Source: Microbotryomycetes sp. JL201 | Taxonomy: Eukaryota > Basidiomycota > Microbotryomycetes | Assembly (NCBI GenBank): GCA_033819885.1 | Contig: JAQYUZ010000013.1 | Location: 1-64,000 of the forward strand | Reading direction: 5' to 3' | Length of the DNA: 64,000 bases | In this document: one piece after another, positions 5,097 to 49,894 of the stretch | Layout of the letters: each line of letters starts with the position of its first letter | Position numbering within the stretch: position 1 is the stretch's first letter | Program-made: the position numbers and the translations under genes | Notes under the pieces: generated by a model | What the model was told of the DNA's origin: nothing | The model's input: only the letters and a program-made list of their open reading frames with translations | The model's database searches: none

Positions 5097-6580
5097 ATGG
5101 CAGCTGTTGAACGTCGCAACAGCGGAACATCGTTCTCTTGGCCTCTCGGTCGCTCTGGTGCGTGGGCGCATCCAGTGTGCCTGCTCGTATGGCATGAGCT
5201 GAGGAGGAGGTAACTGACGCTCGCGCTCACGCGCTCTTTCTGCCCGCACGCAGGCGCATCGGTGTCGGTCAAAACGCGTGGCGACCAAGTCATCTCGTCA
5301 GCCACCTCTCTTCGGGGCGCTGGCGTCGTACATACTCAGGCAAGCGCGGACACTTGGCTTGCCCAAACTCGCCGTCGGTTGATTGACTGTAGAGCTCTCC
5401 GCAACTCTAGTTGCAGTCGGATCATGACAGCCACAAAGTTCTGCTCCGGCTCAACACGATCGACTCAGCAGCCTCATTTGAGCCAAGCGATGCTCAGCGA
5501 GCACTATGGAGCGCCTTGTGGCCCTACTTTGCGCGCGGTCAGGACGCGCCTGCGGAACTTGTGGTCGAGCCGGTCCTTCCATCACAGACCCTGCATGATG
5601 CGCTTGTAGGCATTGGTAAGCAAATATCAGTCCAGTACCGGCTCGAGAAGAGCTAACGATTGGTTCGCCCTCGGCTCCCTTTCGGTACGTGCCAGCGTCG
5701 ACCCCGATCGACGACAGCTATCGAGTGCACAGGTCTGCGATGTTTCAGCTGTACACCTACGCAATCAACAAGATACAACCAGCTCCGTACCCAGCCATTT
5801 TCAACGGTGACGCGCGACCTGCTCGACCGCCAAAGCCGTGTGGCGATCAGCCAATCTACACGCGACTTATACCTCACCTTGATCAGCTTTTCAGGCTACA
5901 ACCCTGCACACAAAACCATCTCAATGTTCTTCACAGCTGGATGAACGATGCTCGCGTCGACAAGTTCTGGGAGGAGAAAGGCACGATCGAGCAGCACGAG
6001 AAATTCATTGCTGACCGGACAGCAGACCCTCACACGCTTTCGGTCATCGGTAGCTACGTCACGAATTCGGGCGACAAAATTTCGACCAGTGAGCCTCAGT
6101 TGGCCACCTACAGCGAAATCTACTGGGTCAAGGAAGATCGACTAGGCCCGCTCATGTCTGACGTGCGGAATTACGATCGAGGCACGTCTTGCTCACCTCA
6201 ATGTTCTCCTGTTTGCTTCGCAACTGACGCAGAAGCCATACAGGTCTGCATATGCTGGTCGGCTCAGATGCTCACAGGGGTCCTCATCGTGTCCGCGCAT
6301 GGTTACCGTCGCTTGTGCACTACTGCTTCCTCGATGACCCGAGGACCGATCGAGTTGTGTGCGAGCCGAATGCCAAGAATGCCAAGATGATCGAGGTAAG
6401 AGCTAGGCGACTGCGCGTCGAACTCGCCATTGCGGCTTCGTGATTGACGCCATCTTCTCGCCCGAACAGTATCTCGAATCCGTCGGTTTTGAACGACATG
6501 GCGACGTGCAGTTTCCTCACAAAGTGGCCGCTCTGATGATCGTCGAAAAAGCGCGCTTCTATTGCAAATGCCCTTTCTAA
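5097..6580 (+). CDS. Siderophore-type N-hydroxyornithine acyltransferase (GNAT, SidF/Sid-like)
   Basis: An acyl-CoA-dependent acyltransferase of the family that loads acyl groups on N5-hydroxyornithine in fungal hydroxamate siderophore synthesis. Family landmarks are visible in order: QPIYTRLIPHLDQLF, then LNVLHSWMNDARVDKFWEE, then the YSEIYWVKEDRLGP core, then GLHMLVGSDAHRGPHRV, and the C-terminal ESVGFERHGDVQFPHK. The ATG at 5,097 opens a short first exon. Introns lie near 5,158-5,254, 5,340-5,410, 5,617-5,698, 6,182-6,243 and after 6,393. Two of these (5,340 and 6,182) need GC donors to keep frame. No peptide synthetase or ornithine hydroxylase is nearby, so its pathway partners must be elsewhere. 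In Ustilago-type fungi such enzymes are peroxisomal or cytosolic; no clear C-terminal peroxisomal tripeptide is seen (it ends KCPF). The exact acyl donor cannot be read from sequence. Confidence 0.78.
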
Positions 6581-6753
6581 AAAACCTTTTGATTGCAATA
6601 CAACACGCCGCGCACGGGCCCACAAAAATCAATCCACTGCTGACATTATGAGCAATTCATTGCTCGCATTCGGAACGCTCACCGTCGACATCACAATCAG
6701 ACTTTGTCGCATATCCGTACGGATTGAGCTGCCACGCCAGCTCAGCCCTACTG

Positions 6754-8501
6754 TCAGATTCCGGAGACAGTGCTGGTCCGACTCACGAATTGCCAATGGA
6801 CCATGTCGCGTGCCATCTCCACGAATGACCTTTCGGCCTTCCAACCTAGGTCGCGCTCCGCCTTCTCGGCGTTGCACACGACACAGCCTAGATCACCGGG
6901 TCGACGCGGCGAGATCACAATTTTGATCGGCCGTTGCGCCACCATCGACAACGTCTCGATGACAGTCAGAACTGATGTGCCTTGATTTGTTCCAAGGCTG
7001 CGGTGTTGGATTTGTGAGCCGACAAGAGTTCAAGAAACCTGGATCGCGCTGCTTTCTCACTTGTACGTCGAATTACTTCGCGCTATGTCAGCGTCGTGCA
7101 TCTTTCGAACTGCTGCGAGGTGAGCCCGGGCCAAGTCAACGACATGGATGAAATCGCGAACGCCGGTGCCATCTGGTGTATCGTAATCTGAGCCGAAAAC
7201 CTGGCAAGTCCAGGAATTCAGTCATCAGTGAGGACTGCAGGAGAATCAGAATGCTGTCGCTCACTTCAACATGCGCTCGCTTGCCCTGCAGCACTTGGGT
7301 AACGACTGGCATAAGATTTGCCGCGTTGGTGGGATCCTGCGCGTCACCCACTCGTCAGACCTATGGTGCCGTGTAACGACTTGTGATTTACCTCGCCGAT
7401 GTAGCCAGAAGGATGCGCTCCACTCGGATTTGTGTATCGCAATGCCATTGTTAGCCAGCTAGGATCTGCCCGCGAACTGACAAGACCAGATTCAGCTGTG
7501 GGCTGTGCCATGGCCTTGCACTTACACATCAGCCAGGATCTCTTCACACATTCGCTTCGTGCGCCCGTCTGGCGTGGACGAGTCAGTAAGACTTTATAGG
7601 AGCTGAGAACGAGGTGCGTACAGGGGTTCGTGATGCCTTTGCTCGCCCCTTCGATCACGTTGCACATGTCCTCGGTGATCCCTTCTCCATCACAGTCTGA
7701 GCCGTACACGACACAGCTTGAGCTGAATACGAGCTTTTTGACGTTCCATCTGGCCATGACCTCGATCAGGTTGAGTGTGCCTCCCACGTTGACTTGGTAG
7801 TATTGTACTGGGTGCAAGATACTCCCCGAAACAGACTTGAGGGCCGCAAAATGGATGGCGGATACAATGCGCGAAGACGTCGGACCCGAGGCGTAGTGTG
7901 CGAATACATCTTCCAAACTGGTACGCGACGTGATGTCGCATTCGTGAAAGTAGAGTGGGGGATGCTGCGCTCGCGAGCGACCATGCTCTTTGTGATGTTT
8001 GGCAGCTAAAAGTCGCACTCTGTGCAGAACTTCAACGTTGGAGTTCGCCATGTTGTCGATGACGACGACGCCACTGACAGGAGAGGGCGGATTCGTCAGA
8101 GTTGATATCCGCATTCACGTTGCGCACTTGACGTACTATGCACCTTCCTGAAGTATTTCCAGCACTGTATGTGATCCAATGTATCCGCTGCCGCCTGCGC
8201 ATTCGCGTACGAGGTGAATCCGTCACTTGTTCGCAACAAAAAGAAAAAGGGCGAAGCATTGTGCGCACGCACCTGTGACCAAGATTAAGGGAAAGGCCTG
8301 CTCGTCAATCGAGCTTTCGTTCGACGACGCCTGCGTATGTTTCCGAGCAGCGTTGCCTGGCGGCGGAGTCCGTGGCGGGGTCGAGAGCGGAACTCGGCGC
8401 AGAGTGCTCGGGTCCAAGGGCCTGATTGCTCCTAATGACTGTAGATTGTTGAGGACATGAGCCGCGTTGCTCTCTGCATCAAGGCTCAGCGCCGCTGGCA
8501 T
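6754..8501 (-). CDS. GAL10: UDP-glucose 4-epimerase
   Basis: Interconverts UDP-glucose and UDP-galactose in the cytosol. The Rossmann NAD motif reads [13 protein letters not shown] across the first intron. The catalytic serine region is [10 protein letters not shown] and the Tyr-x3-Lys pair is in NPYGRTKRM. Further family marks are [47 protein letters not shown] and the final PRRPGDLG plus LGWKAER. About seven exons are needed and all joins keep frame. The stop at 6,754 follows the epimerase domain directly, so there is no fused mutarotase as in budding yeast Gal10. An N-terminal extension of roughly 70 residues rich in Ser, Thr and Pro precedes the NAD motif; an in-frame ATG also exists at 8,546. 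It lies 545 bases downstream of, and on the same strand as, a nucleotide-sugar transporter. Confidence 0.92.
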
Positions 8502-48795: not shown

Positions 48796-49035
48796 GCCTT
48801 TGACAGTTTCAGGCGCAAACCCCGGCGCCCGTGTCGCGGAACCAAGACAGAGATTAGCTGGTGTAAGGAGAGGAGGGTGCAGCGAGACAGTGCGGTGACT
48901 CTGTTCGCGTCACGTTGCTGGCGGTGACGAGTGTGACGGACGCGCATTCCAACTTGTGCGAACCGTGCGCGCGTACAAAGACGTCGACGCTCGGGCCTCT
49001 CTCGCGCACCGCCCCCACTCACACTCCGCCCAGAC
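48796..49035. promoter_or_regulatory. Divergent upstream region, CRIB-like gene and acidic protein gene
   Basis: 240 bases between two outward-pointing start codons. Confidence 0.4.
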
Positions 49036-49894
49036 ATGACCGACTCGCTCAAGCACAGATTGGCAGCTCTGAGAAACAAAGGCGCAGCAACAGACTCGGC
49101 TTCGTTGCACCAAGACGACACACAATCCGCAGTAGCGTCATCATTCACTGACAAGCCAGACGAAGACGACACAGACGACGTCGCGGCTCGACTCGCTGCA
49201 CTCGAACCTCCATCACACTCAACTGTAGTCGCAGTCGAAGCCAAGCACCTTGATCCGCAACTTGAATACGAGGCATGTGGGGCCGAGTGAGCGACTCGCA
49301 TTGCCAACGGGGCCTGATCATGTCGGTGTCTTGGTGTCACAGGTGCAAGAGTATCTCTCAAGAGCGTCCGCACTGTCACTTTCTCCTCCAAAGACGCTAC
49401 CTGCCCAAGATGAAGCGGCAAAAACTCTGAAGCGCTTGGAGGATCGGGCACCGCTAGGAGAGATCGGAACCACCTCGGTTCCGCCTTGGTCACCGATCGA
49501 GGTCACGTTCAAGCCTGCCAATCACGCCTTGTCGTCGGGAGAACCTGAAGATTCGGCGGACGATTTGATCAAACGGTTTCAGGACGAGCTGTCTGTCGAG
49601 AGAGCCATCAAAGGCAGAGAAGACGACAATGTCGATGCCTGGCAACACAGACTCGATTCTATCAAAGGATTCAAGCCTGCTGTAGAGACAAAAGTCGATA
49701 GCGTCGGCCAGAAGACATCGCCACGGGGCAAATTGCCGACCGTAGACGATCTCGAACGGGCAAGATCTAAATCATCATCACGGGACAACACACACGAACC
49801 AAGCGGCGACGACACTGATAGCGACGGTGACACTGAATCCGAAAACAGCGATTCCGATTCGCGAGACACGGACGATTCCAAGTCTGATGCATGA
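49036..49894 (+). CDS. Acidic protein of unknown function
   Basis: I do not recognise this gene. The ATG at 49,036 begins MTDSLKHRLAALRNKG. The first exon is acidic near its end and stops at LDPQLEYE; the second starts VQEYLSRASALSLSPPK. The join needs an intron at 49,273-49,342 that begins with GC (exon end GAG, then gcatgt), because no GT donor restores the frame. The second exon has a helical segment DLIKRFQDELSVERAIKGRE and a long Asp/Ser tail of the form DTDSDGDTESENSDSDS, likely phosphorylated by casein kinase 2. No membrane segment or signal peptide is seen. The protein has about 260 residues. Its stop lies 56 bases from that of the converging peptidase gene. Confidence 0.72.

Follow-up and report, generated by a model that had tools for sequence, protein, structure and literature searches.

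GC-AG introns in described genomes and in the window

Introns with GC-AG termini are a well-known class. Across 130 fungal genomes, on average 98.7% of introns are GT-AG and 1.009% are GC-AG (PMC7072748; published figures here and below are those in the available portions of the cited papers); the value of about one percent assumed in an earlier prediction made from the DNA studied here (the original prediction) agrees with the published mean. This DNA is a stretch of 64,000 bases (the window), positions 1 to 64,000 of contig JAQYUZ010000013.1, assembly GCA_033819885.1, of the basidiomycete Microbotryomycetes sp. JL201. Unlike the fungal mean, the predicted share of GC-AG introns in the window is about 10%. 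We consider it likely that these are ordinary U2-type GC-AG introns with compensated donors, tolerated on summed affinity and about ten times as common as is normal for fungi.

The closest fungal case is Ganoderma lingzhi, where manual correction of the annotation moved the GC-AG share from 1.26 to 1.85%; some of its genes have two or three GC-AG introns, as in the window, while its share is about five-fold lower (PMC11590231). Shares far above 1–2% are reported in algae: 39.6% in Aureococcus, 22.2% in Micromonas pusilla and 7.7% in Chlorella sp. (PMC3033335). The window resembles these algae in a predicted share far above that range; however, the algae have the highest G+C content of 61 species (69.5% in Aureococcus, 65.9% in Micromonas), whereas the window is fungal, with a G+C content of 54.6%. 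A share near 10% is therefore known outside fungi; in the open-licence literature available we found no fungus close to it, and one may be in print. The two-class model of the 5′ splice site (PMC10581693, PMC11732430) describes trade-offs between parts of the donor like those seen in the window; the available text on this model is silent on C at position +2, which here appears as one more exchangeable mismatch.

Share of GC-AG introns among modelled genes

The window is gene-dense and its introns are short. Genes were predicted by a self-training, two-strand gene finder combining a codon model, a donor matrix, a branch site plus acceptor model and a length model; it was run over the whole window, and 28 genes were then modelled one by one. 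Intron lists were set by hand for the genes of TRM61, EGT1, the siderophore acyltransferase, MOSC, SPC2, GALE and a SARAF-like protein; this removed, among others, GT introns 6682–6637 (GALE) and 63265–63006 and 62567–62494 (SARAF-like gene). Inspection of the frames by eye indicates that the GALE acceptor at 7466 is probably wrong; the donor class is unaffected.

The resulting models have 131 GT-AG introns and 15 GC-AG candidates, a GC share of 10.3%; the count of 131 leaves out GT introns present in joined models only (e.g. 53028–52925, 52397–52300 and 59719–59635) as well as GT intron 25624–25683 of the KRE33/NAT10 gene, which was later read by eye. The original prediction had seven or eight GC-AG introns among roughly a hundred. 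All eight of its sites are present, with exons ending in AG and followed by gcaagy, gcgagy, gcacgt or gcatgt; its total was too low, since it had missed 14148, 14813 and 15872 (EGT1), 18258 (RAD4), 24622 (KRE33/NAT10), 40175 and 45245 (eS6), and the denominator is about 146. By type of support, seven candidates have strong homology, three have modest homology, four are indicated mainly by splice signals and one is ambiguous. With only 10 GC introns accepted the share becomes 7.1% (10/141). Genes with a family name, some of them assigned by eye, account for 122 GT and 13 GC introns. The 15 candidates fall in 11 of the 28 genes, which have no evident shared function.

For 10–15 GC introns among 141–146, one-sided binomial P-values range from 2e-6 to 4e-11 against a rate of 1.01% and from 0.01 to 4e-5 against 3%, none of them being adjusted for the selection of the window as rich in GC-AG. 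This selection makes a local fluctuation the first alternative to be weighed: the genome-wide rate would be only modestly raised (2–4%), and a single 64-kb window, picked for its GC-AG introns, would have been flagged for its apparent richness. A count of 13 among 144 has a wide 95% interval (4.9–14.9%); still, it gives P = 7e-6 against a rate of 2% and P = 4e-4 against 3%, before correction for the choice of the window, and we regard such a fluctuation as unlikely.

Evidence for individual GC-AG introns

Sites are named below by the first base of the intron. Each GC site was compared in splice score with the best GT-AG alternative of frame-keeping length (stop codons were not checked). Such alternatives exist at all 15 sites, contrary to the original prediction that no nearby GT restores the frame; the GC site outranks them at every one of the 15, its lead being 2.7 to 14.6 natural-log units, from which about 2 to 5 units would have to be deducted for the rarity of GC donors. 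The margins are smallest at 12499 (2.7), 49273 (3.5), 13057 (4.4) and 41274 (4.7). Judged by Pfam or homologue alignment, removal of the GC-AG intron restores the family match strongly at 7 of the 15 sites and modestly at three; at the level of sequence, these introns are required by the families concerned. Sites 5340, 40175 and 49273 have no profile or homologue covering them.

Three of the seven strongly supported introns (6182, 9861 and 13057) were among those originally predicted. In the siderophore acyltransferase-like gene (PF13523), the intron at 6182–6243 (+ strand) yields 150.0 Pfam bits when spliced at GC versus 131.7 for the best-scoring GT alternative. In the nucleotide-sugar transporter gene (PF04142), the intron at 9803–9861 (− strand) yields 252.0 versus 243.8 bits, with a gene-model log-likelihood of 81.5 versus 69.5 for the GT-only model. 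The EGT1 gene has three such introns on the + strand. Splicing of the first, a 123-nucleotide (nt) intron at 13057–13179, gives 45.7 bits with PF10017, versus 27.1 bits if it is retained and 28.6 bits with GT 13061; the in-frame acceptors 13122 and 13137 are slightly better as splice sites, and acceptor 13179 was picked by homology. A GCTCA tandem repeat lies in this intron, which is in frame and stop-free, so that its retention would add 41 residues. The second, 14148–14206, gives 189.6 bits with PF10017 versus 156.2 and 132.5 when either of two GT sites is used instead, and the third, 15872–15932 in the FGE-sulfatase domain, gives 87.5 versus 73.9 bits.

The KRE33/NAT10 gene, encoding an RNA cytidine acetyltransferase, has a strongly supported intron at 24622–24680 (+ strand): the junction HRQTIQ|YIQPQD aligns without gaps to yeast Kre33, while the GT-only model drops twelve conserved residues, VNIFRQHRQTIQ, at this junction. 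In the gene of ribosomal protein eS6 (RPS6), the 63-nt intron at 45245–45307 (+ strand) gives 342.1 bits if spliced versus 319.2 if retained; the junction is ungapped, and the intron is stop-free if retained. The best GT alternative here, 72 nt upstream, has a splice score of −11.4 versus 3.2 for GC. The eS6 protein matches fungal chains with higher scores than vertebrate ones, which, together with the gene set, points to a fungus.

Modest homology supports three further introns. Two of them, at 12499 and 37223, had been proposed earlier, and homology combined with splice scores upholds them. The 132-nt TRM61 intron (PF08704) at 12368–12499 (− strand) gives 234.1 bits with human TRMT61A versus 225.2 for GT 12478; Pfam profiles do not separate the two readings. 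In the MOSC/mARC gene, the intron at 37223–37283 (+ strand) gives 43.6 bits with MOSC_N versus 39.0 for GT 37214 (GT 37178 was not put to Pfam), and splice scores are 2.9 (GC) versus −4.6 (GT). An intron of the same gene has a run of 35 T (37845–37879) directly 5′ of its acceptor, and the GT intron at 38394–38437, only 44 nt long and far under the 64-nt median, may be wrong. The third, at 41274–41335 (+ strand) in the SPC2 gene (PF06703), had been listed as ambiguous and turns out to be better supported, with 139.0 Pfam bits versus 118.7 for the best-scoring GT alternative (41217); the Pfam comparison was limited to this one, the remaining frame-keeping GT sites being lower in splice score.

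Splice signals are the main indication at four sites. The intron at 5340–5416 (+ strand) of the siderophore acyltransferase-like gene (exons about 5097–6579), where CAG is followed by gcaagc, is probably of the GC-AG type as originally proposed, judging by a splice score of 2.9 versus −2.9 for GT 5328; the family profile stops short of this site. A possible fourth GC-AG intron of EGT1, 14813–14871 (+ strand), has donor gcaggt and is only probable: its splice score is −1.4 versus −7.5 for GT 14819, and the GC reading aligns without gaps to EgtB-IV. In the RAD4/XPC gene, the probable intron at 18199–18258 (− strand) gives 62.0 versus 59.8 bits and a splice score of −1.6 versus −7.6, the best GT alternative being a 36-nt intron. 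In an uncharacterised gene without family match (38566–40779), a probable intron at 40123–40175 (− strand) raises the gene-model log-likelihood to 105.9 from 96.1 for the GT-only model. The last candidate, 49273–49342 (+ strand) in a gene for an acidic protein without family match, had been regarded as required by the frame and is better called ambiguous: it scores 0.6 versus −2.9 for the GT alternative 49287–49362, and the two become nearly equal when the charge for rare GC donors is applied.

Six more GC donors proposed by the gene finder were dropped by judgement. Those at 20164 and 27254 span joined genes. The donor at 63994 has a log-likelihood of 56.7 versus 55.0 for GT only; at 11244 the values are 8.5 and 7.6, and reading through leads instead to a TRM61-like tail at the end of the frame; at 52417 they are 117.8 and 112.8, in a cut-off model. 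The TGS1-like gene has a donor at 47682 (124.2 versus 120.4), with T at −1 and an intron of 198 nt, that may still be real.

Donor composition, branch site and intron length

Mismatches to the donor consensus were counted at five positions (G at −1, purine at +3, A at +4, G at +5 and T at +6). No GC donor among the 15 has more than 1 mismatch (mean 0.80), while the 131 GT donors have 0 to 4 (mean 1.59; P = 5e-5). As the gene finder is biased towards strong sites, the comparison was repeated with the seven that homology strongly supports; of these, three have no mismatch and four have one (P = 6e-4). All seven are well matched, so the pattern does not come only from picking strong-looking sites. 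At the sequence level, then, the GC donors are compensated.

The GT donors are loose, with trade-offs between positions. Among the 131, C is found at +3 in 34 and at +4 in 35, and position −1 is not G in 63. The commonest GT donor hexamer is GTCAGT (18/131; 28/131 together with GTCAGC). The 26% of GT introns with C at +3 may be a high share. Where +3 is C, +4 is A in 30 of 34 donors, versus 54 of 95 where +3 is a purine (P = 8e-4); a full match at both +3 and +4 (purine, then A) occurs in 28% of the 68 GT donors with G at −1 and in 56% of the 63 without it.

In other respects GC and GT introns are alike. The median length is 61 nt for GC and 64 nt for GT introns (P = 0.46), and the branch motif CTNAY occurs in 12 of the 15 GC introns and in 81% of the 131 GT introns. 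The candidates thus resemble U2-type GC-AG introns of fungi in their termini, in the AG|gcaag-type donor and in the usual branch site. None of the 15 has a donor similar to the U12-type ATATCCTT; this comparison covered the donor, and no search was made for a U12 branch site.

Two alternative explanations bear on these properties. GC donors may mark introns that are regulated (alternatively spliced or retained) and kept by selection, a link reported in human, nematode and Arabidopsis (available text of PMC2490688). In the window, however, GC introns are no more often a multiple of three in length than GT introns (4 of 15 versus 35 of 131), and the 15 sites are spread over 11 genes in which no common function is seen, eS6 among them; we consider regulation improbable. 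Alternatively, the GC donors might pair with a U1 small nuclear RNA (snRNA) altered at the base that faces +2, or with a U1 variant of their own. This would raise GC use across many unrelated genes, and a U1 variant is suggested for the GA-AG introns of animals (Cells 2020, in the portion available). Against it, GT is still the dominant donor, and the GC donors are strongly compensated elsewhere, which a normally paired C at +2 would not lead one to expect; as such pairing would make compensation needless, we rate a changed U1 low, as quite improbable. The mean predicted best duplex with the 5′ end of U1 is −4.5 kcal/mol for GC donors and −4.9 for GT donors, while the GC sites with T placed at +2 would reach −8.8 kcal/mol. 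Being near-perfect elsewhere, the GC donors are therefore predicted to pair with U1 about as well as the GT donors do.

Likelihood tests of GC as a second donor

Parameters were trained on GT donors only, and GC donors were then admitted at set priors. The best-path likelihood rose by 18.7 natural-log units at a 1% prior and by 23.9 at a 5% prior, versus 1.7 and 6.5 units for the best of 14 other dinucleotides. The forward likelihood, with the same training, has its maximum, among the values tried, at a GC share of 0.10; it is 9.0 units lower at 0.01, and shares from about 0.05 to 0.18 are within 2 units of the maximum. With GC fixed at 0.10, each of the 14 other dinucleotides contributes at most 0.34 units. 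The GC donor signal exceeds chance. A first forward run that had GC introns in the training gave a share of 0.13 and was superseded, since its controls, run without GC, gained as well, the largest gains being 19.8 units with CA and 16.3 with AA, versus 45.6 with GC.

Mis-modelling, with weak nearby GT sites used or the introns retained, is very improbable: although frame-keeping GT alternatives exist at every site, the introns at 13057 and 45245 are stop-free multiples of three and a profile at 14813 leans towards GT, the alternatives lose 8–33 bits at six of the strong sites, the GT model removes conserved residues at the seventh (24622), and the other-dinucleotide controls are flat once GC is admitted. 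The original prediction of a several-fold excess of GC-AG introns, in unrelated genes, is sustained by the homology at the sites, the likelihood estimate of 10% and the published fungal mean of 1.0% (PMC7072748, as far as its text is available).

Other genes and elements in the window

Pfam or solved-structure matches identify the genes of the siderophore acyltransferase, nucleotide-sugar transporter, EGT1, RAD4, eS6, SPC2, a PHD-finger protein, a TGS1-like cap methyltransferase, TRM61, KRE33/NAT10, MOSC, an amino-acid permease, CDC73, PRP18, NSUN5, PRPS, SDE2, a GH47 glycosidase and a ferric reductase. The names GALE, RPS13 (uS15), COX12-like, SARAF-like and MCM-like are putative, assigned by recognition of the sequences. 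Three genes concern splicing or the snRNA cap: PRP18 (29673–31308), the TGS1-like gene (46049–48795) and SDE2 (54917–56249). Only GT introns were counted in them, the candidate at 47682 having been left out by judgement. Neither Rfam at gathering scores nor a transfer RNA scan gave a match in the window, and no U1 gene was found in it by Rfam at these scores. A KRE33/NAT10 query for related fungal DNA returned one archaeal locus, which was not used, and no viral contigs. At the start of the window, translations judged by eye suggest a Copia-like fragment of RNase H (1–420, + strand) and a broken reverse-transcriptase-like stretch (about 450–1420, − strand), both of them remnants of retroelements.

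A possible origin of abundant GC-AG introns

We propose that a donor would need a certain total match to U1, so that C at +2 could be offset by a near-perfect match elsewhere. The spliceosome would apply a threshold to summed affinity, within which C at +2 would count as a single mismatch that can be tolerated. Where a donor is strong, a change from T to C would then be nearly neutral, and such changes might accumulate under mutation–selection balance in a moderately GC-rich genome. The original prediction had pointed to changes in U1 snRNA or U1C. The compensation is easier to reconcile with normal U1 recognition and a loose donor consensus than with a specialised U1 RNA, and compensated donors argue against a U1 RNA pairing with C at +2; protein-side or population-genetic causes are possible. 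Weak selection could lie behind the frequent use of GC, as could mutation towards G+C or a proofreading factor that has become less strict, and the check on +2 might be relaxed by a changed U1C, Luc7, Prp8 or similar factor. We infer that the GC sites are spliced in vivo, and we likewise infer the genome-wide rate and the cause of the abundance.

Several observations weigh against ordinary, compensated GC-AG introns at this abundance. The models missed some introns (e.g. GT 25624–25683), so that the counts are off by a few; the window was picked for its richness, hence the share is biased upward and the genome-wide rate may be lower. At 12499, yeast TRM61 does not discriminate (208.3 bits for GC versus 208.5), and 14813 has a poor donor, where the DinB_2 profile slightly favours GT (24.3 versus 22.6). 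Taken singly, C at +3 and C at +4 have no significant dependence on G at −1 (P = 0.11 and 0.32). Selection for alternative splicing has been proposed as a driver of GC donors in mammals (PMC2490688, available text) and might also act here.

More tentatively, Microbotryomycetes sp. JL201 may belong to a lineage with relaxed checking of +2, where C at this position is exchangeable like C at +3 or +4 and GC-AG introns make up a stable tenth genome-wide. If only GT donors were allowed in gene finding, as many as 11 of the 28 modelled genes, that of a ribosomal protein included, would be misread here, with loss of conserved segments. A fungus with about 10% of GC-AG introns would offer a short-intron system for finding out what enforces T at +2 and how this requirement can be relaxed.

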